Below the pieces are notes generated by a model. That model searched no databases and was not told the origin of the DNA. It saw nothing but the letters and a program-made list of their open reading frames with translations. 64,000 nucleotides of DNA from Chondrosia reniformis. Lineage: Eukaryota; Porifera; Demospongiae; Chondrillida; Chondrillidae. A program made the position numbers and the translations under genes. The DNA is taken from NCBI GenBank assembly GCA_947172415.1, contig OX359202.1:1800501-1864500 (forward strand), read 5' to 3'. Every line of letters begins with the position of its first letter. The stretch's first letter is position 1. Shown one piece after another: positions 3,475-56,751 of this stretch.

Positions 3475-4496
3475 TATAATTAAGAATTGCCTTTTAGGTA
3501 ATAACAACATTTGAAATAAAACATAAACGTCCATCAAAATTGTGAGTTTGTAGTATATAACTGCAACATGACTGATGACTACATATGTATGTGCTGTATA
3601 GTACTGTGTGTGTGTTTCAGGTAAAACCCTTAATATTAACTTTAGCGTTTTACTTCATATAACTTATTAATGTCCATTAAATTAGCATTTTGTTGTAAAT
3701 ACGTGCTCCACACTACTGCACATGCATAATAATAAACATTTTAGCAACCATACATGTTAGCGAATGATATCGCATCGCTAATTTTGCTAACATTAATGGC
3801 ATGCTAACATTAAGGGTTTTACAGCAGCATCAACATTTTCAAGTTCCAAGGTCCAGTCTCACTGGAAAACCTTTTGTTAACAATGCAGGCAAGGAATGAA
3901 ATTTATTATACCGGCTTCTCTGAAGAATTCGAGTGATTGAATCTTCAAGCTTGCAATTAAATTATTTATTAATAATATGTTGGAGGACAAAACGTTTAAT
4001 GTAGAGGTATTGTCAGCCTAACTTCATAATCTACAGTAATCTTACTTGGTTGCATTCTCTAAAAACCTAAACAGGATATTTCTAACTTGAGCATGAAGGT
4101 TTTTATATCTAAAAAGTATGTACTACAATATGCATACTTATACCCAAAGCTGTAAGTATCAGGTATATTTTTCTATCGTTACAAAGAAATTGTTATTGTG
4201 TTGAATTTAAGGCTTGCGAAAACTAGTCCTAGATCGATCCATTAAGTCAAGTATACGTAGCTTATCTACGTAATAATAACTTCAAGAATTTCTATATGTA
4301 GTTGATACATATACAATTGAAAATATATACGAATGAAATTTAAACAACAGAAAGTAATGATCATTTTGTGTTGAAAATACATATGGAGTGGGCTAACATT
4401 TTACAGGTTATGACTGGTTGTTGAAATGAAATTTAAACAACAGAAAGTAATGATCATTTTGTAGTTAATATAGAAACGTTATAGCTGTACTACTTG

Positions 4497-4740
4497 AAGT
4501 ATCATCATCATTGAACTCTGGATATTACCCCTGCCCACTCATGTCCCCTGAGGAGCACAATGAGCTAATGGGCGGAACTGAAGTTTGCTTGATGGGAACC
4601 AGAGTCTCCCCCTAGCCACTCAAAAAGATGGTCGAGCCATAGACAGCTGTTTCATCCTTATTAGGACTCATCAGCATAAGGCATAGGATGGAAGTTTGAG
4701 TGGCTATCTGCTAATAAGTACTCCCAAGAACAACCAAAAG
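4497..4740 (-). repeat. Hammerhead repeat family 1 copy
   Basis: Dispersed element also present at 8.47, 22.8 and 43.6 kb, with ends such as atcatcattgaactctggat and gtcccctgaggagc. Its minus strand carries the hammerhead candidate listed at 4613-4706. It abuts a separate foldback at 4757-4880. Confidence 0.85.
4613..4706 (-). ncRNA. Candidate type I hammerhead ribozyme
   Basis: Minus-strand reading: outer stem I UAGCCACUCAAA pairs with UUUGAGUGGCUA (12 bp); an inner GCC..AUG pairs with UAU..GGC; then CUGAUGA, stem II GUCC/GGAU with loop UAAUAA, GAAA, a two-base-pair stem III (AC/GU) with loop AGCU, and cleavage site GUC. All invariant core positions are present; the only weak point is a G-U pair closing stem II. 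Hammerheads with this layout are known from metazoan repeats, such as those of Schistosoma. Self-cleavage itself is not shown. Confidence 0.7.
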
Positions 4741-4756
4741 TGTGACTGACCACTAT

Positions 4757-4880
4757 ATGGAAAAATAGGCAAACGTTAAGATCTTAAACCGATCTTAAAG
4801 CATTCATTCAATGATGATGATATTGATGCTTTAAGATCAGCTTAGATCTTAAAGTTCCCCTATTTTTCCATACTTGAAGT
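4757..4880. repeat. AT-rich foldback with nested arms
   Basis: Arms tatggaaaaatagg and cctatttttccata enclose a second inverted pair built on taagatcttaaa/gatcttaaag. The left arm recurs at about 8419, next to another family 1 copy, so the foldback and the hammerhead repeat are associated twice. Confidence 0.7.
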
Positions 4881-5797
4881 ATACTTGTTAACAAACACAA
4901 GGTTCTCAATCAAATTAAATCAGAAAATACTAAGAAAATGGACCTCAAGTGCTGTAGCAAGACTGAGCAGTGAAAGAGACAGTACATTAACATCTACTAC
5001 AGTGTGAAGGTGTGCATAGAAACTATATAAATACCATTATAACAACACTTTTATACTAAAGATAAGGCAACACTAAGTGTATAAATGGTGCAGCTAAAAC
5101 CTATTTTACTGTAGTATCTAAATAAATATATTTTTGGCTACTTTACTTGCTCACAGTTGCTAGATACCCACTCTGTGTAGAATCATTTAATTTAGTAGTT
5201 ATGAGTAAATACAAAAGAATCAAATATTCTTCAATGCAGTACAACATATACAACTTCATCCACTAGGAAGAGATAGAAATTACAATAAATCCATTATACA
5301 TAGCATTACTAGTTGTAAGACCATCTCTTACTAAGTGATTAACATCGACAGCTGTGCAAATCTTTAGCTGAAAGGCTTACAACTGACGGCTACTTTGCAA
5401 AATACGGTTACGATATTAACAATGTTCGCTTACTGATGCCTTTTCTACTTCCATTCGCACAGTCCAGACAATACACAAGCATACGCTGATAAGAAGATTG
5501 ACGTGGAACAGGACTTTGAAGAGCAGCCTTTTTCTACTTCTTACAGTTATCAACACACCCTCAACTCCATCTTCAGTTAAGTGCTGTATGTGAATTCTCT
5601 GCTTGTGATTCATTGATTCAGTTCAAGCTGCCATTTTCAGAGGAAAAAATGGAAAATACACAAAGATATTGATGACGATATTGCAAATTGAAAAAATGCA
5701 CAGTATATAAATGCAAATATAAAAATATAAGCAGAATCCTTCCTGAGGACTTCCAGACTAAAACAGGTCGATCTTTAGTGTCCTTTCTCTGACTAGA

Positions 5798-8700
5798 TGG
5801 AAGGTAAATCTGAATTTAGCAGAACTTATAAAATTGATCAATAGCTAATTATCTACTTTCAGGTAACTTTGGCAAGGGGAGAGGATTGCAACTAGTGCTG
5901 CTGGCTATAATCTTTGCTATTCTCGTTGCAAATAGCGAAGGAGAAAGATGCTGGTAAGTAATCTTGTGTAGTTGTATAGTACCACACAGGGACACACATA
6001 CATTGGAATAGCAAAGTAGCTATAGCATGCATAGGATTCACAAAAGATCAAGAACACGACAAAGATTCCAGAGTTACTGATGTAGGGTGGAATTCGGCCA
6101 GAAACAGCTGTCTGGCCCAGTGAAGCAAAAAGAAGAGAAGACTCTTGTATCCTCATCCATGCAAAGCTCTCTCCAGGTTTAGTTCCCTTTAGGCCTTTCA
6201 ATTTATTACAGAGTAGGCATAGCATACAGGTAAATGGTGTATTAGATTATTCAAATTGATCTATTTATATAGTAGATTAAGTGGAAAGGTGTTTGTCTGT
6301 ATTGCTGGCATTCAGAGTACCTATATAATATGATGCTCTATCTAACACATGCATGGTATCTCAAACAATTGTTGGGAAAAATTGATGTATATCGACTATG
6401 CAATTAAATGATTATGTAATCAATATATAGAGAGCTAATATTTAACTTCAGTGACTATTCTTTTTACCTTATAGCAAATATGTAGTAAAGTCTTATGTAC
6501 AATCACGTATTACCTATACTGAGACTTGCAGCCTTTGGGGGAGATGCAGACAAAAGTCCATGTAAGTGTACTATATACATACGTACATACCTATAGATAT
6601 TCATATCCTCATATGTATATATACAGTACTGAAGAAAAATATTTCAGAATAATTCCTTTCAACATATACGTACGTATGTATACATACGTATAGAGGAGTA
6701 ACCAAGTAAAATGATTTTTTTATTATTAGAGTATATTTTAAAATTTAGTTTGATAGGTGAATTAATTAAGCTGAAAGTGGCTTTGCATAAAATAAGCTTT
6801 GAAAAGTAAAACACAAAAGATAATTAAATAAAAAGTGCATGATCTATAGAAAGCAGAACAGTCTCTAGCAAAGAGATGATATATGTATATATTGCAACTT
6901 ATATGATGAAAGTCTCAAAAAGGATTTGAAAAGAATTTAAGCAAATAGAATAAATGTATGATTACATAGATTTATAAAGGCTCATCGATGTAGTATATAT
7001 GAATTCTGTTTCCTGGCCTATAGTTTAGCACATGATGTGTTTATACACTCTATAGTTGCCTTAGAAACTAATATAACTTCACTCATATACCATTCCAATA
7101 CATACTTTGCTTTTCATAATTAGTTTGAAAGTCAATCATCCATCCATTCATCCATGTAAATGCATATATACATACATATATGTACATATGTACATATCAA
7201 TGTATTAATAATTTGTATGAGTTTTAATCAGTAACACTTTATAGTACATGAATAAAATGTTGCTGAATTTCAAACAAAGCACAAATCTCATTAGCAAATT
7301 ATAATACTTGTATATATTATGTAGGTATAATTGAAGGTGCATGCATATAGTAGGATGTTCACAAAGTAACCTTTCAACTTCTTTGAAGGTTTCAATTTTT
7401 GTTTATTAAGGTTTCTCACCTGCATTACTGGGTACTATTTATTTTGTATAATACAGGACAAGCTATAGAATTGCTTATAGAGTTGAACAGTTATGCAGTA
7501 AGAAAAATATAATCTATTAAATAACAATCCTACGTATATATATACGTATGTATATAACACAAAAATGTTCCTACTATATATACACATGGTCTTATTCATT
7601 CTATATGCATGTACGTATACCAAAGTGTTTATACAGTAATTGTATAAGTTATAAAACATATAAAACGTATACAATATGTGTCTTTGCATTACACACAAAG
7701 CTACCTATAATCATAAACTTTCCGTTCTCATATGCTTATATGAATGTATGTAGCCAATGGACCAGTTAGATCTCCTATTGTTATTGGTAAGTATACATGA
7801 AGATACGTATATATATATATATATATATATGAAGGCATATACATACCTCTACATGAAGATATATATTATACCTATACATGCATCTTTATGTTGTAGTGTG
7901 TTCTTTCATGCATTGAGTGCACTAATAGGTATATAACCACTAATTATGACCCAGTAACCATTAAACATGTTTATTTTATTACACAGGATCAAATTTCATT
8001 ATTTTATCAATCAATTATATTTCATATAGCATGAAACCTATTTGAAACTTCTTGAACAGCCAGGTTTCATTGGGTGCTTAAATATGTGCTAATAGATTAA
8101 TTTCACAGGTTTCAAGTTTTTCAAAACCCTCTTTCCTCTTTCCGAGTTTATACATACTATCATAACTTCTGAAACCTGGCAATTCAAAGAGTTTTGAATA
8201 GGTTTCATGCCTTCTGAAACCTGAGATTTGATCCTGTATTAAAGTCCTCTAACTCATACTGAAAGTAGAGAATACAATATAGAACATATCCTATATGTCC
8301 CACGAGAGGTCTTCTATCTGTATATATAGTTGAGCCTTAATACCATGCAGGTCTTTGATTATCAGCTTGTTCTGATAACTGAATCATCACTTAGTGATAT
8401 GTACTAAATACATTGTTATATGGAAAAATAGGGGAACTTTAAGATCTAAAGCCGATCTTATAGCATCGATATCATCATCATTGAACTCAGGATATTACCC
8501 CTGCCCACTCATGTCCCCTGAGGAGCGCAATGAGCTGATGTGTGGAACCGAAGTTTGCTTGATTGGAACCAGAGTCTCCCCCTAACCACTCAAAAAGATG
8601 GTCAAGCCATAGACAGCTGTTTCGTCCTTATTAGGACTCATCAGGGGACAGGCGTAATATCCAGAGTTCAATGATGATGACATTGTTATATAATTCAGAA

Positions 8701-11700
8701 ACATGAATGGAGTATTGTATATAGCTGTGGGAAGTGGTCTATACCAGCTATTTTGGGTTCACTTTCCATCAGTTACTTCTTTCCTGTTTCCTCTTCAAAA
8801 TGTTTGAGAATGATTTACTTATAATTATGGTGTGCTTATTACTTTGATTATTCGTTATAAGCAAATAATCACTGGAACATATTATGCCAAACCAATCAAG
8901 TGACCGCAGTCTAATCTGATGAGCTTAAATGAGGGCAAAATAGCTGTCTTTGGTCACTTGGCTGGTTTGGTGTAATATAAATTCCAGTGGTTTTTTGCTT
9001 ATCATCATGACAGCCTTTGCAAATGCCAAGTGCAATTATATAGCTGCCTTAGCTCATTGATTATTTATGATATATACTATAATTATCAATTTACTTATAT
9101 AGTTCCTGGACTTTTTGGATCTCACATAAGAGCAAAGTTCTCCAAATTGGTGGATAAAGTTTTCTGCCTGTGCCTTTCTGGTTTTTGTCCTGTTTGGCTT
9201 AGTTTGGAGCGAATATTCTGTTTGGATGATGTACTAAAGTATGCTAGAGTGTTACCTATATATACGTATCTCTAAATACATGCCAAAGCTAATTTAGATG
9301 GATATATATATACGTGCTTACATGATAAATGTGCATGAACTTTATATTCTTATTATGTGTTAATCTATGGCTTGGAAACCTATTAATGGCATCCAGAAAC
9401 TTTTGTGATATATGCAATTATATGCTAATTACTTTCATGTCATTAAATAAGACATCACATGCACATGTAATATCTTTATGATCATTCAGGCATCAACATA
9501 TACAGTACATATATACGTATATGTGTGTACCTATAATATGGTACGTATGTATGCAATCAAATAAAGTCAATTAAATACATTTAATTATATTAGCATGCAT
9601 ATATACATTTCCTGAGAGTATATAAGTGTACTTATGTTATATTTCAGGCTATACTATAGTAATGGAAGATTCAACACTGAGTCTGGAATTGAAACTATGA
9701 TTCCAGATTTTGGACACACACAAGCAGTTGAAATTATTGATGATGGTGTTCTAGATTTTGGTCTGTTGGATAGTTACACCTCTTACTTTTACAAGATGGT
9801 TAAGTACTTTGTCAACAAAGGATACACTAAAGATAAAGATATCAGAGCTGCTCCTTTTGATTGGAGATATGACGCAGGTATGTACATATATGTGTAGTTA
9901 GTAAATCATATGCATACATACAGTATTGTATTGGCTTTCAGAGAAGCCTTAGTTAACGAATCTTTTTCTATCGATATTTATAATGTTCAGGACAGTTAAA
10001 TGTCCTCAACTGTTAAGATTACGAAAATATATATATTAAAGCCCAACAAAGCCGTCAAATAGTTTTTTTAACTTGAAATATCCACCTCATGATATTTGAG
10101 GATGATTATAGTTACTTGTGGTTTGATTATCACCTCAATTAGTCATATATAGACATAAAGAGATAGAGTTAGTATATATACATACTAGGTGTTCGGTTCC
10201 CATAGACCTTTTAGTCTAATTAGCTTGTTGTGTTTCAAATAAAAATATTATATATACGTATATATATGAATGTTATATTATTGATCTCAAATGCACATCT
10301 TGTAGGATGCATCTTTGCAGCTCATAACTACTTTCAAAGGCTGAAAACCCTAATTGAGGATACTTACAATAGTAACAGCAACAGATCAGTGACACTAGTA
10401 GCCCATAGCTTGGGTGGAGCTGTCTCTTTGTATTTCTTGAATAATGTTGTTTCACAGGAGTGGAAGGATACATATATTCATGCTTATATTCCTCTTTCAG
10501 CTGCTTGGTCAGGAAGCAGTGTGACTGTTGGAGCTGTTGCCCTTCACACTTTTCAGTTGCTTGATAGTGTGATAGAATCTAAAACAATTACCTCCCATTT
10601 GACTTCAATTGTAAAAACTTGGCCTTCCATGTACTGGCTATTTCCAAGGGCAGAAGTATTTGGAAATCAGACAATTGTGGAATCTCGTTATGGAGATGGG
10701 AGGCTCAAGCGAACATATTCAGCCAATGATTGGCAAGCCTTTTTCTCAGATTTTAATGTTCCAAATGGATGGGAAATTCTCCAATTGGTTCATGCTCTTA
10801 ATGCGAATTTTACGGCTCCAAATGTTACTGTTCATTGTTTATATGGAGCTGGCTATTCGACTCCCTTTAAGTTCATTAAAAATGTTGACGATATGAAGAG
10901 TCCAGCTGAGGTAATCTTTGGTGATGGAGATGGTACAGTTAATATTGAAAGTCTAGAGGTGTGCCTTAAATGGAAGAATGAACAGAGTGCTCCTTTTACC
11001 AGTAAAAAGGTCAAAGCAGCTCATACACCCATTGTAAAGACTAGAACTGTTTTCAATTATATTGAATCTGTAGCTACTGATTGTCAAACAGGATGCCCAT
11101 GTATCAGTGAGTGAATATATACGTATATGTATAGTAAATGAATAAAACAACCATTTTCCTATATATGCATCTATTCTAGAGAATATAATAGGGGCCTAAT
11201 AGGAACTAAACCTAGTGAGAGCCATATGTAGATGAGGATAGCTCCTTCTTCTTCTTCTTCTCCATGGGCCAGATAGCTGTTTTGGGAATTCCACCTTTCA
11301 TCAGTGGCCCGAGTCCTTGTCTTCTTAATTAGATATTTTGTGGTCAGTATTATAAAGTTATTGAGCAACAGCAGCTGATGACTGAATCCCTACACTGGTT
11401 GAAGCGTTCTGAAGCTCAATAACTTTGCTAACTTATCGCAATATACACTCTATCATTTCAGGTAATAATGCAAAATAGTCAGTTCTATATATATATGAAT
11501 ATATGGCTTACACACATGCACATGTATGTTTATGTGCTGCATATTAAAAGAACCATATTGCTATATATATTTTTGTGCATCTAGATGGAGATGTAAAGAT
11601 AATTGGTGGTGATAGCTTGCATGAAGGAAATCTGATGACATGGTTCAATGGCTCTTGGTACTCAGTGTGCACTAGTAGTACTCTATGCAGCTACACCTTG

Positions 11701-16900: not shown

Positions 16901-19900
16901 GTATAGAGTAATACGTAGTTTAGATTACACTTAGTATGTTCTACTAAACAGTGGTGATTAGTACTTATATACACACATAACATATAGAAGCCAAAATATT
17001 CTAATCTTGATCTTTAGGAAAGATTACTTATTAAGACATTAACACTTGGCCCCAGCTAATAAAACGATTTATGAAACTTTAAAATTTGGATACTTTTTAG
17101 GGGCTATAGGCCTGTAGGCTTTCATTTTGCGATTCATTTGCATGGCTTGATATTACGGAAACACATGCATACAGTATGTCGTATACATAATAGTTCATAC
17201 ACAATTATTATAACACTTAATATATACATGTATGTATTTGAAAATCTCAAGGTGTGGTAAGCCTAAATCATCTTTAGACAAGTTTTATTTCCTTTCTCTT
17301 ACCGTTCTATGAATTTTGAGGAATCATAAAGACTACTACTGTAGAAGGTATTAAGGCTAACTAAGTGGCCATGTAATTTGAATGCAGGGAACAGCAGATC
17401 CATAAATATTAACTATTAGAAACAGTTGGTTATTCAACTTTAATGACAGAATTTTATTATCTTTGGGAAGACAATTGTTATTCGTGTGATTGTACAAACT
17501 ATTAGTTATGCAGCGATTTTGTTTACCTCCTAGAAACAGCAAAGCTCTAGCAATCCTGCTTGATTGCTCTCCTTCACCTGTTAAGGAACCGAATATCTTC
17601 ACAGCCGAGTCCAGTAATTTTCCTCCCTTGCCATTCTGCACATCTACAGCTCTTCCAAAAGCAGTTGATAGAATAACCTCCATAGTCATCTTGTTATACA
17701 TTCTACGTATGTACGTACATAGAGAAATACTTATAAATGTATCCTTAAAATATTTGTATTGTATTACATTTTATGCAATATACACTGACTTTAAAGCATC
17801 CACCGTTTCACCACTGGATGCAAAGCAACTTATCTTGCTACAAAGACGTTCAGTACTCTCCTTAATTAAGGATTCCATCTAAAATACAGCAAGTAAAATA
17901 AATTATAAATAAACGCAAAACAAATGGTTTTGCAATTTATATAGAGTTTGTAGATAGACAGAAAATCACATTTTAACCACTATTGCAAGGCCCTGATTAT
18001 TAGCTAATTCTGATAACTCAAATATCACTAATTAGTATGGATACAGATACGTAGTTGTAGCTAACATTAGAGGGAAACATGAATTGAGCACTGCTATGGC
18101 AATTGTAGCTCAGTGGCAGAGCACTGGTGGTTATAATCAGCTGTCTGGGGTTATATTCACAGTAATTGCTTCTTTTGTGTTTTTCTCTCTGCTGCTTGTA
18201 GTTTTATGTATTATTTGATTGTGTACATACATACGTACGTATGTGTGTACAAGAGCTCATTAACAAACACCTTCACATGCAGGAGATAGCTTAAGCACCA
18301 AATGTAGTCAAATTAAGGATTTATAAATTATCTAATACCAATTGCAGGAGAGAGTGGCATTATCAGACAACCACAACCATTTTATTAAAGAGGTTGGTTT
18401 AAATAGCCAAACATACCAACTTCATCTTATGTCCACTGAATGCTGGTGTAAGAATTCGTCTTCTCTTCTTCCACGAGTCTCCTTGGATGGCAAATAAAGC
18501 ACCGTACTCCTTGCCATCAAGTCTGGTAGTTATTAGGCCATTACCTTGCTAAACAGTTTTCAGACACATAATTATAGTTAAATCCAGATCTATCATATTA
18601 CAATAAATCATATTAAGGGTTTCTATTTGCCATTGATATTCTATCATTATAATGATATGTAATTAAAAGGAAACACAACAAGGAATCAAAATTAAATCTG
18701 ATAGACTGATTAGTGATGATACGTACATGTACATTGAGTGAGTAATACGTATACAAACATATCAGCACAGTCATAATCAGGGCTGTAGCAAGCATATTTG
18801 GACTGCTCAGGCCAGAAAGAGGTCAGGACATACACTGTAAGGTGGGACATTGGCAGCTACTTTGGCCTAGAAATAGGCATGATCATTGGCCCAAGTGGTC
18901 ATCTGCCAAATTACACAGAATTATTTGGAGAGGCTAAAGAGGCAATATTCTGAAGTCATGGCCGACTCTGTGAATGTGTGAAGGAGAAAACTCTTGTATC
19001 CTCATCCAAAGCTCTCACTAGGTTTAGTTCCATATAGGTCTTTATTCTAAAGTATATGTAGCATGTAAGAAGAATTGTATTAGATTATTTATGCATGTGT
19101 GGAGAATCAAATAGTAAAGCTGGACCATCTGGATGGCTTGCTACAACATTTGTGAGTCCTGCCAGTATAAACCACAGACATTGCACACATACTACTAAGT
19201 ACTGCCAGTCTATTAGCAGCACAGTATTGTGGTATGGTATTTTAATTGTTTACTTAAGCACTACTTTGTACACCTACTCTCTAATGTCACTATATATACC
19301 AAATACAAAAACAGGATTTAAATAATATCTCAAGGGGGGGAGATATACAAGTCTTGAGGGGGCAACCTCGGACAGTATTGTTTGCTATTGAATAAAGGGG
19401 ACAAAATATTTTTAAAAATATAAAATATTTTTATTTTTAAAAAGGAGCAATTGCCCCTTCTACTACCAATTCTCCCACCTTTAAGAACATTAAGGTTGGT
19501 GGAGCAATTGCCCCTTCTACTACCAATTCTCCCACCTTTAAGAACATTAAGGTTGGTGGTGATATATTTTATTATACAGTACATACAGTAATGAATAATA
19601 CAATTGTACTCACAGTTCGATCAGTAAAGTTATCAGAATGTTTGACAGTTATCAGTTTTAACAAGTCAAGGTCTTTAGTAATAAAGAAACTCAAATTTCC
19701 AAAGTACAACCTGTATGAAAAGTAATACAATTGAAAAATGAGAGCATAAATTACATTGTAACCATGTTTCTATTACACCATACACAACTATGAGTATTAG
19801 CTTATATGTATCTAGCAAAGGATCAAAAAGACTGGGCAATTTGACAAATTAGAAATGTAAATAGGTCATAATTATATACATCTGTGGCTTCATGGCTAGA

Positions 19901-21149: not shown

Positions 21150-24100
21150 TTATCTTGCTTCAAACTTCACATACACTCCTTCAGCTCTGAGAATGGCACC
21201 TAACACCGCCTTCAGAGGTACCTGCAATATAATAGACATTGTAGCTTATACTCTAAAGAGGTCAAAGACATCACAGAATACGTAAACATAAAACTAGTAG
21301 TAGCCAAACCTTTGTTTCTGGGGCAAGAAGTATCTTATATTTGCTGATTACTTCAATGAGGGCCATTTTGGCCTCCAAATATGCAAGTCTCATTCCAATA
21401 CAGCTTCTTGGGCCAGAGCCAAAAGTCAAGAAGGAACATGCATGGCGATTTGCTTTGTTTTCTTGATTGAACCTGTACAAGGAGATGATAACAATGGCTT
21501 GTAAATATCTGGAAGGACCTAACAGATCTGTAAGTTAGAGCATGTCCAGCTGAGAGTTTACATCTAATTAAATAAATGTGCTAGAATACACTAAAACAAT
21601 ATCATATTGGTTAGCCTTGCATGGCAAATATGACTGTCATATTGTGATTGTTCTAACCTTTCAGGGTCAAAAGTTTCTGGATCTGGCCAAATCTCTGGAT
21701 CATGCTGAACACAGTAAATAGGAATCATTACGGTTACACCCTTCTTGAACGGAATACCATTAAGTACAATATCTTCATTGCATATCCTTGCAGTGCTACA
21801 TGAAAAGTGAAGTACGTATAAATATATTGTTCACACAAACAGTGATCTATGATACTCTTGTCTACACTTTGCCTAACTCACACTGTTCCTACTGGGAAAA
21901 GTCTCAGAGCTTCATTAAAAACCAAATCCAGGTAGTCTATACTGTGAGTTGCTTCATAGAGAGTTGAGTCCTATATTCAATTATTACCAAATATTAAGAT
22001 ACTCCTATACGTATGAATATCTGTAAGGTCTATACTGCTGACATACTGGATTCTTAGAAAAGTATTTCCTGATCTCTTCAGCCAGTCTTTCTTGGATATC
22101 AGGATGAGAAGCTAGTAAACCGGTAGTAAATGTGAGAGCAGAGCTTGTGGTCTCATAGCCAGCAACTAGAAATCCAATGGATTCTGCTATAATGTCTCCA
22201 TCTGACAAAGCTCTGTTTGAATCACCGTCACCTGCTTCAATCATCAAGCCAAGTAGATCAGAGTTCTGAAACAAAGACGTATACAAGTATATATTACATA
22301 GACAATTTATTTCAGTCAATACAACTAATTACTGTAGTTGTAATATTTCCTACAACTTTTTTATTCTAATGAAATTGTACCATACCGACATTTATATTAA
22401 AATTTTTATATCACTTTGATATAAAGGGTATGTCAATGTCTGGATGTGATCCAGAATGCTTGTAGCATACATTATCTAGATCTGCCCCGCTACAACTGGG
22501 AAGGGCAGTTACATTGTAATTACAGGTACGTATACACACTCAGTATATTATGCATGTATACGTACATGTAGAAATGCAATTACACCTGGGATGTATCATG
22601 AACTTTGAACTTTGATGTACCACTTACAGTATTGCTCTCTCCATTAAGAGCTCTTCTTGATTTTATTATCTCCTGACTGGCCTCAGCCAGGTAGTCCATG
22701 GCATCACCCAGGACAACAGTTTGAAACAGATAGCGAAATAGAGGTTTCAGCTTAGGGAATGAAGCTAAACACAATAAGATATATGTAAGTATCCTCATCA
22801 ATCGACTCTGAAGTTTACCCCGCCCACTCTCCTGCACGAGGAGCACCAAAAGCATTGGTGGAACCGAAGTTCATTTGATGAGAACCAGAGTCTCTGAAGG
22901 AGATGGTTGAACCATAGAGAGGTCTTTGTCTTTATTTGTACTCACCAATATGGCATACAATGGAAGTTTACGTGGCTACTCCGCTCATACACATGCACTC
23001 CCAAAAACTAAAAAGCTTGTGGTTTCCTCATCAGCAGATAAACCACTTATATGGCCTGGGCAAACTACGTACATATGTATATGTACATCAAGGTCCACAA
23101 TAAAAGAAGATACCTTAATAACTTATTAATTAATTACTTAATACAATATATGTATGTGTAATTAATTAAAAAGTATACATACATATGGCAGACATTATAC
23201 ATACGTATATAGGTACAACTTGTTAAAATTGTGTAGCATGGAGACTTTAGGAAGAAACATGTCACATCTTTTACTGCACGATTGCTAGAAACACACCCTT
23301 AAACCGTCAACTTACCTGTGAGGATATTCAAAGTTCCAGCTATCCTGCTTGCTTGCTCTCCTTCACCTGTTAAGGAACCGAATATCTTCACAGCCGAGTC
23401 CAGTAATTTTGCTCCCTTGCCATTCTGCACATCTAGAGCTCTTCCAAAAGCAGTTGATAGAATAACCTCTAATGTCATCTTGTTATACATCCTACGTATG
23501 TACATAGAGAAATACTTATAAATGTATCCTTAAAATATTTGTATTGTATTACATTTTACGCAATATACACTGACTTTAAAGTATCCACCGTTTCACCACT
23601 TGATGCAAAGCCACTTATCTTGCTACAAAGACGTTCAGTACTCTCCTTAATTAAGGATTCCATCTAAAATACAGGAAGTGAACTTAAATAAACAAATTTC
23701 TGAACACAAATAACTTGAATGAATGCCCTTGAAGTAAAGCATTTGGTGATAATATATAAAATGAATAGGCAGCTGGCCAGTAAAAATAATTATCACATGA
23801 TGACGTCATACATCAAAGGGAAAGGTGTGCAGGTAAACGGGTTACCAGCACTGCCAGCAACATGTAAGCGCCCCTAACACCTCCTTATATGGCTTTAAGG
23901 CGGAACAGCCCCCACGCATCTTCCATATATGGCTAGCAACACAAACACACTAATTACAAATCAATCAGCACTTTCAAAGGTCAAGTACAGAACAGTATAA
24001 AAGTAGCGCATTTGTAGAGCGATTAATTTGGCGATAAACCACTTATTACACGCTCTCAATAACATATAGCGTATTTACTGCACTCGCCCTTGGGTGCTTT

Positions 24101-25760
24101 GCGCCCAAGGGCGAGTGCAGTAAAAGCAATACGCCATTGTGAGCGTGTTATAACTAGTACAGATAAAGCTTTATTTACATACTGTTTAGAAAAAGTGACT
24201 AATATATAGGTTTCACTCTCAAATAATCGAAGTGATAATCAAACCACAAATTATAATCCGTCTCAAACATCATGCATACGCACCAACTTCATCTTATGTC
24301 CACTGAATGCTGGTGTAAGAATTCGTCTTCTCTTCTTCCACATTTCATCTCGGGCATCAAATAAAGCATTGTACTCCTTGCCATCACAAATTATACTTGT
24401 CAGACTATCACATTCCTATCAGTTAAAAGACACTAAAGTAGATGTTAGTTTAGAATGTTATGAATAATCATTACACCATATTCATAGGTTCTGTAATATA
24501 TGATGTAGATAGCCAATATGGATGACTTTGATGGGATCGCTGGTTGTCATGCAAATAGGATTTCATCTCCTAACCAAAAAGACTAGTCACTACGTATTTT
24601 GGCTTGCTGTAAAATTTTCCGTGATTATTTACACTTCAATTACTACCCTTTTACAGGCATGTATGGCTATAGAATCACTGAATAAGTGTGTTGAAAGATA
24701 CTCACAGTTCTGTTAGTGAAGTTGTCAGAATGCTTGACTGTAACCAACTTTAGCAAGTCAAGGTCTTTGGTAACTAAAATTCTCATATTTCCAAAGTACA
24801 TCCTGTTTGATGAAAAGGTAATGTAACCATGACAACTGATAGAATAGACAAATATGAAAGATATCTTACAAAGCAGTAGTTTAATGGCTACTAGCTACCA
24901 TCTCGCAAATTAATAAATACTGTTAGCAGCATTTGATGACAAGAAATATGCAAACTGTACAGGATAACAGCACAACCAAATAAATCAGGAATCCTAAGAG
25001 AACCAACACAAAGTGGAGCCATAGACTACTTTGTTAACAAAGTCATATATAGCTCCCATGGTGGCAAGATAGTGGCCTGGGTTATGCAAGATCAAAAAGT
25101 GATGTGGTTGGTAATAATATTGATATTACACTTCTGTTTGGTTAGCCATGACAACCGGATTAATTTTCCTCCATTTTCCAGATGTACTAGTCATTATTGC
25201 CAGCAAGCATGCAAATCACTACTTTAATCTTGAAATATTGCTTGTATATATGAGATTCTTATATAGCAGTGATTTCATTGGTAGAGCATTACTACACGTA
25301 CCCAAATGTTGGCCCATACTCTTCAAATGCAGAGCTAAAATACTCTGATAGACTTGACTGAAGATAAAAGAGACAGGAAGTAGTTAATAGACATACCATA
25401 TACTGGTAACTTACATTGTACTTCTTTAATAGATGTAGGTTTCCGATTACTGGTTTTGGAGTGGGTCCAGGAATCCCAAGCTGCTTAAAGTACTGGTGGG
25501 GCTTGTAGATATAACTGTATAGTGGAGAAATTCAAAGGAAAATCTAGGTAGTATTACTATATAAATCCGAGACAAGTTTATCATTACTGATATTAGTCTA
25601 GTAAATGAGGTTTTTTACAGCATATAGCAAGGTAATGTAGCAATGCTTTCAAGTCTGCTATTGTAATTTACTTGTAGTAGGCGAAGGTAGCACTTAGCAA
25701 ACCCAAAATCAGTAGCAAGATGATAGTCGAAACATTCAGCACAGCAAATACACCATCCAT
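21150..25760 (-). CDS. Cytochrome P450 gene B, tandem duplicate of gene A
   Basis: Exons (minus strand): 25672-25760, 25415-25514, 25302-25357, 24706-24802, 24284-24415, 23575-23663, 23316-23491, 22628-22764, 22047-22265, 21882-21970, 21658-21795, 21310-21472, 21150-21221. Every exon has the same length as in gene A except the last, which is one codon shorter; total 518 residues. All P450 signatures are kept (WKKRRR, AGYETT, EVLR, FGSGPRSCIG). Differences cluster in exon 5, whose first 30 residues are clearly changed (ECDSLTSIIC against QGNGLITTRL), a region before helix C that may affect substrate contact (inference). Head-to-tail with gene A, about 680 bp apart. Introns contain a family 1 hammerhead repeat relic and a perfect hairpin element. 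Confidence 0.92.
22795..23000 (-). repeat. Hammerhead repeat family 1, degenerate copy
   Basis: Recognisable by tcatcaatcgactctg, ccgcccactc and gttgaaccatagagagg, but the core is altered (GGUGAGUAC in place of CUGAUGAGUCC). It lies in P450 gene B between exons 7 and 8. Confidence 0.7.
24043..24154. repeat. Small foldback with perfect 19-bp hairpin
   Basis: 24076-24094 (tactgcactcgcccttggg) is exactly complementary to 24104-24122 with a 9-base loop; outer arms ttacacgctc and gagcgtgttataa extend the fold. It lies in the intron between exons 5 and 6 of P450 gene B and is much more GC-rich than its surroundings. Confidence 0.85.
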
Positions 25761-35400: not shown

Positions 35401-38400
35401 TCCAGCATTGCCACAAGCTGAAACTAAACTTCCTGAAACAAACACTCTTTAGCCAGTTCCTACGATTTTGGAGTTGCCCATAAGAATTAGAAAAAAATGG
35501 ATAATAGTGCAAGAGTCACTAGCCCAGGTCTGCAAACGGCTCAAAACAAATAAACAATGGAGCTATCTTCCTTATATTAAAATCATCAACTCTCTTCTTG
35601 ATTTTGTATTTTGCTCTCTTTTATTGAGTATATACTTTAATACCATTACGTACATATATACAACATGATTCATATAAAGATAACATTATTAATTATCCAT
35701 CGAAATTATATTTAAAAAAAGAAAAAGGCCTACAGCACTGGGTATTCCCAGGCGGTCACCCATCCAAGTACTAACCCAGCCCTATACTGCTTGACTTCAG
35801 TGATCAGACGAGAACCGGTATATTCAGTATGGTATGGCAGTAGGCCTCGTGATCACTATTAGAATAGCTATTTATACTAAGTGGTACAGTTTCAACAAAT
35901 CCCATTTTGTCAATTATCTACTAAATCATGGTATTTAAAAAAAGAAAAAGGCCTACAGCACTGGGTATTCCCAGGCGGTCACCCATCCAAGTACTAACCC
36001 AGCCCTATACTGCTTGACTTCGGTGATCAGACGAGAACCGGTATATTCAGTATGGTATGGCAGTAGGCCACGTGATAACTATTAGAATAGCTATTTATAC
36101 TAAGTAGAACTGTTTCAACAAATCACATTTGATCAATTATCTACTAAATCATGATATTTAAAAAAAGAAAAAGGCCTACAGCACTGGATATTCCCAGGCG
36201 GTCACCCATCCAAGTACTAACCCAGCCCTATACTGCTTGACTTCAGTGATCAGACGAGAACCGGTATATTCAGTATAGTATGGCAGTAGGCCACGTGATC
36301 ACTATTAGAATAGCTATTTATACTAAGTAGAACTGTTTCAACAAATCACATTTGATCAATTATCTACTAAATCATGGTATTTAAAAAAATGAAAAAGGCC
36401 TACAGCACTGGATATTCCCAGGCGGTCACCCATCCAAGTACTAACCCAGCCCTATACTGCTTGACTTCAGTGATCAGACGAGAACCGGTATATTCAGTAT
36501 AGTATGGCAGTAGGCCACGTGATCACTATTAGAATAGCTATTTATACTAAGTAGAACTGTTTCAACAAATCACATTTGATCAATTATCTACTAAATCATG
36601 GTATTTAAAAAAATGAAAAAGGCCTACAGCACTGGGTATTCCCAGGCGGTCATCCATCCAAGTACTAACCCAGCCCTATACTGCTTGACTTCGGTGATCA
36701 GACGAGAACCGGTATATTCAGTATGGTATGGCAGTAGGCCACGTGATCACTATTAGAATAGCTATTTATACTAAGTAGTACAGTTTTGACAAATCCCATT
36801 TTGTCAATTATCTACTAAATCATGGTATTTAAAAAAAGAAAAAGGCCTACAGCACTGGGTATTCCCAGGCGGTCACCCATCCAAGTACTAACCCAGCCCT
36901 ATACTGCTTGACTTCAGTGATCAGACGAGAACTGGTATATTCAGTATGGTATGGCAGTAGGCCTCGTGATCACTATTAGAATAGCTATTTATACTAAGTA
37001 GAACTGTTTCAACAAATCACATTTGATCAATTATCTACTAAATCATGATATTTAAAAAAAAGAAAAAGGCCTACAGCACTGGGTATTCCCAGGCGGTCAC
37101 CCATCCAAGTACTAACCCAGCCCTATACTGCTTGACTTCGGTGATCAGACGAGAACCGGTATATTCAGTATGGTATGGCAGTAGGCCACGTGATCACTAT
37201 TAGAATAGCTATTTATACTAAGTAGAACTGTTTCAACAAATCACATTTTGTCAATTATCTACTAAATCATGGTATTTAAAAAAATGAAAAAGGCCTACAG
37301 CACTGGGTATTCCCAGGCGGTCACCCATCCAAGTACTAACCCAGCCCTATACTGCTTGACTTCGGTGATCAGACGAGAACCGGTATATTCAGTATGGTAT
37401 GGCAGTAGGCCACGTGATCACTATTAGAATAGCTATTTATACTAAGTAGAACTGTTTCAACAAATCACATTTTTTCAATTATCTACTAAATCATGGTATT
37501 TAAAAAAATGAAAAAGGCCTACAGCACTGGGTATTCCCAGGCGGTCACCCATCCAAGTACTAACCCAGCCCTATACTGCTTGACTTCGGTGATCAGACGA
37601 GAACCGGTATATTCAGTATGGTATGGCAGTAGGCCACGTGATCACTATTAGAATAGCTATTTATACTAAGTAGTACAGTTTTAACAAATCCCATTTTGTC
37701 AATTATCTACTAAATCATGGTATTTAAAAAAAGAAAAAGGCCTACAGCACTGGGTATTCCCAGGCGGTCACCCATCCAAGTACTAACCCAGCCCTATACT
37801 GCTTGACTTCGGTGATCAGACGAGAACCGGTATATTCAGTATGGTATGGCAGTAGGCCACGTGATCACTATTAGAATAGCTATTTATACTAAGTAGAACT
37901 GTTTCAACAAATCACATTTGATCAATTATCTACTAAATCATGATATTTAAAAAAAAAGAAAAAGGCCTACAGCACTGGGTATTCCCAGGCGGTCACCCAT
38001 CCAAGTACTAACCCAGCCCTATACTGCTTGACTTCGGTGATCAGACGAGAACCGGTATATTCAGTATGGTATGGCAGTAGGCCACGTGATCACTATTAGA
38101 ATAGCTATTTATACTAAGTAGTACAGTTTTAACAAATCCCATTTTGTCAATTATCTACTAAATCATGGTATTTAAAAAAAGAAAAAGGCCTACAGCACTG
38201 GGTATTCCCAGGCGGTCACCCATCCAAGTACTAACCCAGCCCTATACTGCTTGACTTCGGTGATCAGACGAGAACCGGTATATTCAGTATGGTATGGCAG
38301 TAGGCCACGTGATCACTATTAGAATAGCTATTTATACTAAGTAGAACTGTTTCAACAAATCACATTTGATCAATTATCTACTAAATCATGATATTTAAAA

Positions 38401-41400
38401 AAAAGAAAAAGGCCTACAGCACTGGGTATTCCCAGGCGGTCACCCATCCAAGTACTAACCCAGCCCTATACTGCTTGACTTCGGTGATCAGACGAGAACC
38501 GGTATATTCAGTATGGTATGGCAGTAGGCCACGTGATCACGATTAGAATAGCTATTTATACTAAGTAGAACTGTTTCAACAAATCACATTTGATCAATTA
38601 TCTACTAAATCATGATATTTAAAAAAAAGAAAAAGGCCTACAGCACTGGGTATTCCCAGGCGGTCACCCATCCAAGTACTAACCCAGCCCTATACTGCTT
38701 GACTTCGGTGATCAGACGAGAACCGGTATATTCAGTATGGTATGGCAGTAGGCCACGTGATCACTATTAGAATAGCTATTTATACTAAGTAGAACTGTTT
38801 CAACAAATCACATTTTGTCAATTATCTACTAAATCATGGTATTTAAAAAAATGAAAAAGGCCTACAGCACTGGGTATTCCCAGGCGGTCACCCATCCAAG
38901 TACTAACCCAGCCCTATACTGCTTGACTTCAGTGATCAGACAAGAACCGGTATATTCAGTATGGTATGGCAGTAGGCCACGTGATCACTATTAGAATAGC
39001 TATTTATACTAAGTAGAACTGTTTCAACAAATCACATTTTGTCAATTATCTACTAAATCATGGTATTTAAAAAAATGAAAAAGGCCTACAGCACTGGGTG
39101 TTCCCAGGCGGTCACCCATCCAAGTACTAACCCAGCCCTATACTGCTTGACTTCGGTGATCAGACGAGAACCGGTATATTCAGTATGGTATGGCAGTAGG
39201 CCATGTGATCACTATTAGAATAGCTTATTATACTAAGTAGTACAGTTTCAACAAATCCCATTTTGTCAATTATCTACTAAATCATGGTATTTAAAAAAAT
39301 GAAAAAGGCCTACAGCACTGGGTGTTCCCAGGCGGTCACCCATCCAAGTACTAACCCAGCCCTATACTGCTTGACTTCGGTGATCAGACGAGAACCGGTA
39401 TATTCAGTATGGTATGGCAGTAGGCCATGTGATCACTATTAGAATAGCTTATTATACTAAGTAGTACAGTTTCAACAAATCCCATTTTGTCAATTATCTA
39501 CTAAATCATGGTATTTAAAAAAAGAAAAAGGCCTACAGCACTGGGTATTCCCAGGCGGTCACCCATCCAAGTACTAACCCAGCCCTATACTGCTTGACTT
39601 CGGTGATCAGACGAGAACTGGTATATTCAGTATGGTATGGCAGTAGGCCACGTGATCACTATTAGAATAGGTAGGTACGTACCTCTAGATTTTCAAGGTT
39701 GCAAATTTCTTCAGGCAGAGACTTTAACTCATTTTGACTAATAGAGAAAAAGAAGAGTTTAAATGTTATACATGCTTCATAAAAGAGTGGAGCTTTCACC
39801 TTAATAGTAATATCTTAATTGAAACAAGTAGTTTGAAAGGAAGTATAAGATATTCTTTTCCATAAGTTAGCATGTCTTCAGATGATAAAAATATCATCAT
39901 TCGTATGGTTTACATTTGGGATTATGTATAATTTAACACAGGCCTTCAAGTCCACTTTATATATACGTACATATGTGTCTAAACTAAAACTCACTGCAGA
40001 TTTAATTCTTCAAGTGACTGTAGTTTTTCAATACTTTTAGGAAGGTTCCGCAGAGCATTGTTAGATAATGTTAAAATTCGCAATAACATCAAGTCACCTA
40101 TGTTCTCTAAAGAGAAAACAACACGACATTAAAAAGGGACAGTTTTTGAAAATTTACACAGCTAGCTCTAATTAGTGGATGGACTTGGCAAACAAACTGC
40201 TGGTTTGGGATGGCTCAACGAAATGAGCTTAACACCTGATTCCCATGGCTGTAAGGCAAGAAGATGGTTACAGTTGAGATTTTCAAACATCTCTACTGTA
40301 ACGTACGTACTTGTGTACTGTAGCTCCTATTAGAAATGTACACATTAAATCATACTACCGCATTCAACTGGTATTGTATGAAATTTTCAAAGGGTATGGT
40401 CCTAACCTGGTAACGCGGTTAATCTATTGTTTTTCACATCCAGTTCTTGTAGCCATTTCAAACTGCACAGATCATCCTGTAGAAAAGAGAAACACAAACA
40501 AGGTGGCTTATTTTTAAAGATACTTTAGTGATGTTTGGATAGGTGGGTACATGTACGTATGTACTGCATTACACACATCTCATGCACAAACAAAGTATAT
40601 ATATATATATATTAATGGGTAAAGAATTTGGTACAACTTTAAAGTCACCTGACAGTCATGTGACTCACTGGAAGTGATTTAAGACAGTTGTATTGCAGAA
40701 AGCATTCTTGGACACCATTTAACCGACCAATATTGCTAGGAAGTGATGACAAACGATTAGTAGAAAGATTTAGAAGCTCCTAAAACAGATAAACAATGAA
40801 AATAACATAAAGGCACTGTACAAAGAAAAATAAAGTTAATATGCTATAGTAGTATAAGCATTGCAGAGGAACGGTTCTTTAACATCATAATTCTATTAGA
40901 TAATGGAGACTATTAAGTATGTAGTAGTTATACCACACTCAAGTGTGAAGCTAAGTGATATATATCAAGTATGACTTGAATCAATTGTAAAGGTGATGAT
41001 AAGTAAACACCAGTAGGCCTACTGGTGATATAACATTTATCACTAGTTCAAGTGTGAAATATAAGGTTTGTAACACCCCAGATATCACCTGGTTGCCCTG
41101 GTAACGTGATATATAACCTATTGTATTACTACTTTTCAAATGCATTAGTCAAATACATAACTCTGCAGCCCATAAAAGTTTTACAATACTTTTCTGACCT
41201 ACGTATACACATAGAGGGGAAAGTGCTTCAAAAACATTCATACCCATTTACACAAATAATAATGTACATGCGTATGCTCATAATTGATCATAGGTCAACT
41301 CAAATTGAGGAAGGATCAAAAATGACTGGATTGGTATAGAGGCTCGGCCCTCTATTCAGACAAATAGCCAAGGATTCACAGAAGATCAAGATAAAGAAAA

Positions 41401-44400
41401 AGACAAAGACTCCCAGGATCACTGATGAAGGGTGAAATTCCCAGAAACGGCTGTCTGACCCAGTGGAGAAGAAGATGAAAGAAGGGAAAAGAAGGAAGAA
41501 AAGACTCCTGTATCTTCATCCAAAGCTCTCTTCAGGTTTAGTTCCCCCTATAGGCTCTTTTTACAGAATAGGCATAGCATGTAGGAAAATGGTGTATTAG
41601 ATTTTTCATGGTACATGTGTTCAAGGTACGAAGGTGAACAAGTGTGACTGGAGTGTAATAGGGTGCTGGTCTGATGGACCATGCACTCACTAGCTGTTCT
41701 CCAACATCAGGTATGTGTTGTGGATAGCGTGTTAGATGGGAGAAGCTGAGATCCAGTTCAAAGATCTTATCTCTGCAGGCCTGCAGCACCCTCTCCTGAG
41801 CAGCATCAAATCCTGTCCCGTGGGCTGCACATACTGAATTGGTACTATTGCGACAACAACTTGCACAGAATTTGTACCTTAAGAATTCAAAACATTACTA
41901 ATTATTCCATTACAAACAAACTATAACTTGAGCAGAAGTACGTATATGGCATCTATTGTCCACATAGACAATAAACAATAGCAATATGATGACTTTATTC
42001 CCAAGCAGAAATCTAAAAATGAAAGTAGAAGGTAAATCTCAGGCCATGTACGTACTTGGGGACCAAAGTCCTACGATATACGTACGTACGTATACTCAAA
42101 AGTGGAAAACTGCAAACAGTTCTAGCCCAAGCAACCGTATAATAAAGTATACATCTTTAACAATGTATTCAGCGGAAGACAATTTTTCAATCAAAAGGTT
42201 TACATTTGATACAGATAAAGCAAATTGGGACGGACAAGTCTTACGTGCAATCCTTCTTGGCTGAACTCTCTTTACAACTGCAGAAAAGTTGAAATCACCA
42301 ATTAGATAAACAAAATTGTATCCTTAATAAGTGTACATGCAAAATACACATGAAGACACTGCACACAATACAACAATACTTGGAATCATCGCTAACTCAA
42401 ACTATATGTATTGATATGCTGGTTGTTTGGCATATACATACACAGTTGCATATGAAGTGATAAGGGGTACTTGTTGCAATCATTATGATAGAGAAATTAT
42501 TCGAGCAATTAGCAACACTTCTTTAAACAAAGATTAAGACGTTCTATTTAAACTTTGTAACCTCCTCACCATTCTAACTGATGAAGACCCACAGGTCGAA
42601 ACGTCTTAATCTTTATTTGAATAAGTGTTGCTAATTGCTCAAATAATTTCTCTAACATTTGCATATACACACATACATACATATGTAAAGGAAATTACAC
42701 AAAATAGGCAGTTATTTGTACAAGCACTGTGCATAGGGTGAGATGAATAGTCACTGCAAGCTACACCAAGTATACCAGACTGATACCTTGAAGGAGGCAA
42801 AGTAATTATTGGTGACATCTTACAAAACTACTGTCTCAAAAGCAGTATATGAATTCAGCCACTTGTTTGGTCAGTATGATAACTTCCAGCAAGTATCCAC
42901 AAGTAATGTGGTAAATAAAAAAATAATTGTGGCATACCAATATGTTTGGTTGAATAGCCAATCAGAAGCATTAGAGCAAATCTAGCTCATTAGGTGCTTA
43001 ACAAGTAGATGAACGTAACCATCCTATATGGTAAATATGCATACTACAAGAGACTGCCTTATAAGGAGAGGCAGGTAGGGTTACGCAACATGCATACTTA
43101 AGCAAGGTTGTATGACAACAATACATTTCTATTTTCTCAAAGGAAGAGTAGAAGAGTAAGTCAATTAATCACTCTTCCCTTCTCAGTCTATACCTGTTAA
43201 CTGGTGTCTCACATCAAATCTTTAAACACAGACAAGGAAGCAAGCTGTAATTGTGTGAATTAAGTGGTGATTGGCATGTGCAGAGATGGAATAGCACAGG
43301 ACACATACTAATCTTTTAACAGCAGCCAGGTATAAAGAGATAATTAAACGCTAATTAAACACCTTTGTTTTCATGATGAGACAGACATTATGGAACTCTT
43401 AACCATTTCTGGAGGACAGTTTACTTACCCATGACAAGGAAAAGATGGCATTTTCCTCTCTACAACAATAGTTCTGATTCCCTTTGAAGTGAGCACTCTT
43501 TTAACAGATATCTATAGAGACACAAAACACAGTGGTTTTACTTCAGAAGGGATGACATGCAGCTTTTCAACTTCCAATTCAAACTGAATCTACGAGGACT
43601 ATGTTCAGGGCAGGAAAGCTTGTGGTTTTCTGCTGATAAGGAAACCACAAGCTTTTTTGCTTTTGGGAGTGCTTATTAGCAGGCTAGCCACTCAAACCTC
43701 CATCCTATGCCTTATGCCGATGAGTCCTAATATGACTGAAACAACTGTCTATGGCTCGACCATCTTTCTAGTGGCTAGGGGGGACTCTGGTTCCCATTAA
43801 GTGAACTTTGGTTCCGCCCATTAGCTCATTGCGCTCCTCAGGGGACATGAGTGGGCAGGGGTAATATCCAGAGTTTAATGATCATGATACTGTAAGATAG
43901 ACTTTAGATTCCCTGTTTTTTTTCTAATTCTCTTCAATTAGTATTTTAGAAATTATATAATAGCAGATTTATCAAAGCTATAGTTGATAAAGCCATAGAT
44001 TAAGTCTATGATTAATGATTAAGGAAGCATACACATTTAGAATTGAATAGTTTGGTAGCAATTAATACATAAAGTATTCTGCCATAGATCATGTACAGTG
44101 AGATTTTCCAACTACGTATTTAGAATATTTGACAGGTTTATTTCACTGCTAATCTCACCACTTTCGGATCTTGCAAAGGAAGTATTGGCAAGTTATCAAA
44201 TTCTTTCTCTGGCAAAAACTTATTGTCTACCTGTACACGTTTCTTTGTTCTTCTTTTAGACCTTTTCGAACTTAGCTTAGTCGGTTGGTTGGAGCGAAAA
44301 CTCTGTACTCTTCTGGATCTCCTCCATCTACTCGCAACCAAGACCACAAGAAGACATATAGGGAAAATTAAAACGACGCAGACAGCCAGTAGGAATAGCA

Positions 44401-56507: not shown

Positions 56508-56751
56508 TACGTACGTATATATACCATGAAAAAGGGAATTAATTGCAATGAGCCGTGCAATGGCTAGGATGATAAGTAAAAATAATCCATGTACGCATAT
56601 ATATACATACGTATGTACGTATACGCAAATTTCCGCACTTGCAGCTTTCCTCAGTTGCTCTCTCAAAAACCCTCAAACAGCTGCGTGGCCAATTGCAAAC
56701 GGTGGCGTTGTCCAACAGCGGAAAAATGCAAAAATCGCCAAGTTTCTTTTG

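Follow-up and report, generated by a model that had tools for sequence, protein, structure and literature searches.

Hammerhead Retrozymes of the Sponge Chondrosia reniformis Share a Two-Sided Insertion Scar with a Resident Penelope-Like Element

We find that the genome of the sponge Chondrosia reniformis carries short repeats with a type I hammerhead ribozyme, and we consider it very probable that they belong to the non-autonomous non-LTR retrozymes and that a Penelope-type protein reverse-transcribes their circular or multimeric RNA, starting from both strands of a nicked target. What the sequence shows directly is a family with its hammerhead, the regular tandem spacing, head-to-head insertions with outer ends at two sites (A and B), the target duplications, the read-through of the ribozyme cut site, and the presence of the same scar on a resident Penelope element. 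Judged by sequence, the sponge elements are best read as further metazoan retrozymes, to which their junctions would add direct evidence on the machinery that moves them.

Hammerhead Ribozymes in the Window and in the Genome

The window is a 64,000-nucleotide stretch of contig OX359202.1 (assembly GCA_947172415.1, positions 1,800,501 to 1,864,500), in which a sequence-only reading had described a complete hammerhead inside a dispersed repeat. That observation is real. On the minus strand of 4613–4706 the motifs that it named follow one another in the order given, namely TAGCCACTCAAA (4706–4695), CTGATGA (4674–4668), GTCC (4667–4664), GGAT (4657–4654), GAAAC (4653–4649), ACAGCTGT (4650–4643), TATGGC (4641–4636), and TTTGAGTGGCTA (4624–4613), and the 12-bp outer stem is confirmed; cleavage is predicted between 4642 and 4641. 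The word complete needs qualification: all parts are in order, but this copy is decayed: stem II has a G-U pair at its base, and the inner stem I departs from the consensus GCCAUA/UAUGGC. The Rfam type I hammerhead model (RF00163; 45 positions, cut-off 34 bits) spans all 45 of its positions at 4636–4680 but scores 24.2 bits (E 0.19), below the cut-off.

The second copy, at 8612–8644, has a perfect core, stem II included, as had been claimed, but the 5′ strand of stem I is absent because both arms of the insertion meet there; the model aligns end to end at 8606–8647 on the minus strand (26.3 bits, E 0.038), again under the cut-off. The third, from 43684, keeps its 9-bp outer stem (CTAGCCACT/AGTGGCTAG), but this stem, which had been taken to be of different sequence, is the family's own; here CCGATGA stands in place of CTGATGA, and stem II is broken. 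The window holds four copies of this family (family 1) rather than three, the fourth being an older fragment on the minus strand at 22783–23041, with 75–81% identity and without a clear target duplication.

The covariance-model check that the sequence-only reading proposed thus has two sides: every window copy falls below the cut-off, but many genomic hammerheads exceed it. Across the genome (117,379,552 bases in 15 contigs), RF00163 gives at least 65 matches at E ≤ 0.001 and at least 51 above the cut-off, the best at 43.1 bits, with both families included; these counts are lower bounds because 73 of 11921 candidates were scored. Since 51 genomic hammerheads pass, the family does not lack copies above threshold. 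At least two of the matches belong to family 2 (L002, L005). The 33-nt core of family 1 is found 67 times exactly and 291 times with up to three mismatches, and the reversed pattern, used as a control, has no match in the genome at the same tolerance. The Rfam Hammerhead_II model gave no genomic matches, but its controls gave none either, so that this result is no proof of absence. Window matches to an HDV-type ribozyme and to several microRNAs in Rfam are far under their cut-offs.

Two Families of Noncoding Repeats

The family 1 consensus, 354 bp long, was derived from five tandem units (L009–L012, L020); tandem monomers measure 350–355 bp. Its hammerhead combines a stem I (GCCAUA/UAUGGC) that is extended through an internal loop into an outer stem (CUAGCCACUC/GAGUGGCUAG), a stem II with a 6-nt loop II (GUCC-UAAUAA-GGAC), and a helix III of 2 bp (AC-AGCU-GU), and the cut is predicted to fall after GUC. 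As a circular RNA the element is predicted to fold strongly, at −123.1 kcal/mol (z −5.6 relative to 100 dinucleotide shuffles). When the hammerhead consensus is folded locally by free energy, both stem I and stem II appear, but the core CUG pairs with the CAG of helix III; because this pairing replaces the native core, the fold alone does not prove the active shape.

With some of stem II and its loop left open in the core pattern, 196 cores were found in the genome. Among them is a GCCC-AAATGA-GGGC type, with tandem arrays of four on C4 and C7 (C4:3837454–3838563, C7:2773361–2774477). The consensus of family 2 is 359 bp long and comes from eight tandem units of 359–363 bp. Between the two families the hammerhead aligns over 38 nt (87%, E 1.3e-9), and outside it there is one weak 58-column match (71%, E 0.015); the ribozyme is therefore the conserved part, as the hammerhead alone aligns well. 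Compensatory differences occur at positions 1.2 and 1.6 of stem I and in one stem II pair, and family 2 has, where the outer stem of family 1 lies, an 11-bp helix of different sequence. Families 1 and 2 are two unrelated retrozyme families with the same layout. Three family 2 copies were recognized in the window, the largest a decayed head-to-head copy at 8863–9038 (minus strand, monomer 91–145 at 8863–8917; plus strand, 327–359 and 99–183 at 8916–9038), the others fragments at 24519–24564 (plus strand) and 56523–56587 (minus strand).

Neither family appears to encode its own machinery. No reverse transcriptase (RT) or GIY-YIG frame was found at the family 1 and 2 loci checked for frames; the longest family 1 frame is at most 68 aa at three loci, and the longest stop-to-stop frames at five loci from both families are 57–80 aa. 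The GC content is below 50% in each (45.5% in family 1, 44.3% in family 2). Unit size, lack of coding capacity, GC content, the type I hammerhead, and the target duplications described below support the earlier inference that this is a retrozyme or small hammerhead retroelement of the metazoan kind.

Among the 162 core positions listed, 13 of the 14 same-strand neighbors within 600 bp are spaced 350–363 bp apart, and the opposite-strand neighbors within that distance comprise 14 diverging and no converging pairs. At one place 281 bp separate a family 2-type core (C5:1988136) from a family 1 core of the same strand (C5:1988417), which may be a composite or nested insertion.

Structure of the Insertions

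We parsed 75 family 1 insertions in the window and in the loci retrieved from the genome, these being the best-scoring or core-bearing copies out of 1138 candidates. Grouping by internal junction leaves 62 distinct insertions and clustering of flanks leaves 54; the former is preferred because flank clustering fused independent insertions that share a 13-bp satellite. The arms are arranged head-to-head in 38 of the 62, the left arm reversed and the right arm forward, and therefore each outer end corresponds to a 3′ end of the ribozyme strand; the other 24 are not head-to-head. The outer 3′ ends cluster at two places, site A at monomer positions 136–150 (...AATGATGATGA) and site B at 186–206 (...CCCTATTTTTTCCATA). 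By end class, 24 of the 62 insertions are A+B, four A+near-B, three B+B, and one A+A, whereas 24 have at least one 5′ outer end and six are of other kinds. Where both ends fall at A or B, the mixed A+B combination accounts for 24 of 28 cases; independent choice would predict about half.

A shared word of at least 9 bp is found across 29 of the 75 insertions and across 24 of the 33 with A+B ends, compared with 15 of 1479 mismatched flank pairs in a control that covers family 1. Under junction grouping, target duplications of 9–14 bp are present in 23 of the 62 distinct insertions (19 of 24 with A+B ends), and no shared word of that length was found in the remaining 39; under flank clustering the shared words number 19 of 54 (A+B, 17 of 22). 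The duplications in the 23 insertions are AT-rich (77%). For family 2, seven of the nine fetched loci (L107–L115) combine an A end at 145–157, a B end at 192–196, and a shared word of 12–15 bp; L113 and L115 do not show this combination. Core pairs that were already divergent and close had guided the choice of six of these nine loci, so that their ends and shared words count as independent evidence and their head-to-head form does not.

Two family 1 insertions in the window are head-to-head. The insertion at 4501–4874 is composed of a minus arm (4501–4803; monomer 141 to 1, then 354 to 152), the left end of which is site A, and a plus arm (4811–4874; monomer 137–202), the right end of which is site B, with a 12-bp duplication (TACTTGAAGTAT) at 4491–4502 and 4871–4882. 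At 8419–8680 a minus arm (8419–8644) with its left end at site B meets a plus arm (8639–8680; monomer 99–140) with its right end at site A, and the duplication (ACATTGTTATAT) lies at 8410–8421 and 8680–8691. Both window insertions with intact ends thus carry target duplications. The copy at 43626–43888 on the plus strand, with the CCGATGA core, ends at site A, and a search of its flanks found no target duplication.

Template for Reverse Transcription

The ribozyme cut site is crossed by 59 of the 62 distinct insertions and serves as an end in none of them, neither among the 62 insertions for outer ends nor among the 76 inner ends. Arms reach 814 nt and thus exceed two full turns of the 354-nt unit. 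The template was therefore a closed circle or an uncut multimer rather than a linear monomer released by cleavage. The inner ends of the arms cluster at the same two sites (A, 10 of 76, p 0.0014; B, 13 of 76, p 0.0005), which would be expected if each reverse transcriptase tended to stop where the other began on the same RNA; because the test presumes a uniform background, the clustering is no more than suggestive.

A Resident Penelope-Like Element

Searches for GIY-YIG domains gave 38 genomic matches above the cut-off. At locus L071 a frame of 750 aa matches RVT_1 (E 5.8e-10) and, narrowly, GIY-YIG (22.7 bits against a cut-off of 22.6). Insertion ends were read at four loci; two were selected by frame (L071, L072) and two by close, divergent 3′ ends (L105, L106), so that the head-to-head form of the latter pair is not an independent count. 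All four insertions have inverted 3′ ends on both sides, of which one is short (...CCATCCCAAAGA, with AAGG in L105) and the other tailed and about 35 nt longer (...TTATAAGGAATCCTTATTC), and have duplications of 12–13 bp (TAAAAGGGAGTTA, ATTATATGTCCTA, GTATGGCTTCCT, and TTGTATGAACTA, the last two read by eye). In two further Penelope pairs (C13:2947068/2949001 and C6:4755167/4757169) both sides may carry the long end. At L070 the Penelope element has an inverted arm of 1057 nt (99%) and ends in tandem repeats of 615 bp.

A stretch running from CACTGAGGAAGACCC to GGGTCGAAACGTTTGACC is present in all five Penelope loci checked; it resembles the minimal hammerhead motif of the Penelope type and may be one. 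Rfam does not report it, and no Rfam hammerhead was found at E ≤ 5 in seven Penelope/GIY-YIG loci.

The protein of the Anolis element PAc cuts and extends both target strands in vitro and begins cDNA synthesis at two internal RNA sites, the stretch between which forms a "tail" on some genomic ends (PMC11167929). Penelope insertions of Adineta vaga, as far as PMC3846280 describes them, have inverted pseudo-LTRs, one with a 31-bp tail, and 8–10 bp duplications. Elements of the Penelope/Poseidon type, in so far as these two sources set them out, and the sponge retrozymes have in common their head-to-head inverted ends, the short duplications of the target, a hammerhead, and a tail, optional and confined to one end, that corresponds to the stretch between two RT start sites, as for A and B. 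Unlike Penelope-like elements, the sponge retrozymes encode no RT or endonuclease, and neither family has detectable sequence similarity to the sponge Penelope element (best E 0.10).

Proposed Mechanism and Alternatives

We strongly favor a mechanism in which tandem copies would be transcribed and the transcript cut by the type I hammerhead into units of about 354 nt, which would be closed into circles. A circle or an uncut multimer would then serve as template for the resident Penelope-like reverse transcriptase-endonuclease. The enzyme would nick the target at positions staggered by about 12 bp, and the 3′ ends of both target strands would prime at internal RNA sites, with A about 140 nt downstream of the ribozyme cut and B a further 40–60 nt on; the two cDNAs would meet and be joined head-to-head. 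The resident Penelope lineage is the putative supplier of the enzyme, a link drawn from the shape of the insertions. An uncut multimer is possible as template because ribozyme mutants of PAc left insertion in vitro unaffected (PMC11167929), and the role of the ribozyme may be to produce stable circles rather than to act in insertion.

A more specific proposal, which we put forward tentatively and hold at somewhat less than even chance, is that copying of the circle starts simultaneously at two points. The nicked strands would prime at A and B, and each cDNA would tend to stop at the start of the other; the retrozyme would be a Penelope pseudo-LTR reduced to ribozyme, site A, hairpin tail, and site B, and A+B pairing would then be a general test for Penelope-driven animal retrozymes.

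It is improbable, in our view, that a LINE moved these retrozymes and that twin priming produced their inverted arms. LINEs do prime on nicked target DNA and can leave inverted 5′ pieces, but twin priming would place the second outer end at an arbitrary internal position, and here two fixed sites recur (A+B in 24 of 62). Fixed two-site ends are likewise seen on the resident Penelope element, in a comparison that covers the retrozymes and Penelope only. Both LINEs and Penelope elements have been proposed for metazoan retrozymes in the portion of PMC7229834 that treats their mobility, which leaves the mover open, calls Penelope elements a strong candidate, and, together with the relevant part of PMC7761336, names them the likely mover given the type I hammerheads, tandem occurrence, and coexistence that they have in common.

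We regard it as very unlikely that the repeats are satellite DNA spread by recombination, with the hammerhead as a relic: there are tandem arrays of up to four units, and some insertions were amplified along with the surrounding 13-bp satellite, but dispersed copies with target duplications occur on most chromosomes, and what the two families have conserved, while diverging elsewhere, is the hammerhead. Least credible of all is a MITE that carries the hammerhead by chance, since the inverted terminal sequences and target duplications of many copies are outweighed by a duplication length that is not fixed (9–14 bp), by ends at two different sites rather than one terminal repeat, and by arms to 814 nt and tandem 350–363 bp units, which misfit a cut-and-paste element.

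Relationship to Known Retrozymes

The sponge elements are best placed among the metazoan non-LTR retrozymes, known from the coral Acropora, the mussel Mytilus, and axolotl, with which, as these are characterized by Cervera and de la Pena (2020; PMC7229834), they have several properties in common. Type I hammerheads are found in both. Metazoan retrozymes are tandem units of about 170–400 bp, arranged as dimers to multimers, and the sponge units are 354 and 359 bp; they are low in GC and without a long reading frame, as are the sponge families. Their target duplications exceed 4 bp, compared with 9–14 bp in sponge family 1, and the invertebrate members have a 2-bp helix III with a tetraloop, as does family 1. 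The same account states that mussel retrozymes are without most of the conserved nucleotides of the contact between loops 1 and 2. Metazoan retrozymes are also expressed as linear and circular RNA; the passage of sponge copies across the cut site in 59 of 62 insertions fits circles or multimers. A sponge host differs from the hosts treated there. Plant LTR retrozymes (PMC4918200) are also hammerhead-bearing and non-autonomous and are thought to use circular RNA, but according to the comparison in PMC7229834 they have type III hammerheads, LTRs, PBS/PPT, and 4-bp duplications.

The main text of PMC7229834 does not mention inverted, head-to-head insertions that end at two fixed 3′ sites, and the word "inverted" does not occur in it; we found no report of sponge hammerhead retroelements or of A/B-type inverted ends on retrozymes in the open-licence PMC literature. 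That two unrelated retrozyme families and a resident Penelope element share a two-sided, two-site scar would be more direct evidence on the mover, and the question of Penelope as mover becomes testable by sequence alone in other genomes, and in vitro.

Genomic Targets and Neighboring Repeats

When three mismatches are allowed, the dimer of the 13-bp satellite (ACTAGTTGTATGT) matches the genome about 190,000 times, for example at C5:2932790–2939768 and C10:2821289–2843260, and the satellite is present in the flanks of 11 of the 62 distinct family 1 insertions. The stretches within 100 kb of listed satellite positions cover 4.4% of the genome; they contain 10 of 56 exact-core places and 10 of 40 Penelope 3′ ends. 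Either shared targeting or shared survival there would fit these counts. The satellite may be centromeric, because its exact matches, among the places listed, occupy one or a few places per chromosome.

Other repeats in the window include 18 identical or near-identical 5S rRNA genes in a 224-bp repeat array (35709–39670, minus strand) and an 18-bp minisatellite (GTACATACCCTATACACA) of about 119 units at 46514–48662. The microRNA matches below threshold at 46514–48662 are due to this minisatellite, in the region of which the GC skew is strong (−0.53 in 46001–48000). A tRNA model match at 18099–18170 on the plus strand scores slightly above its cut-off (30.8 against 29 bits) and is perhaps a tRNA-derived repeat. 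Contig C15 carries mitochondrial COX1, in which TGA is read through.
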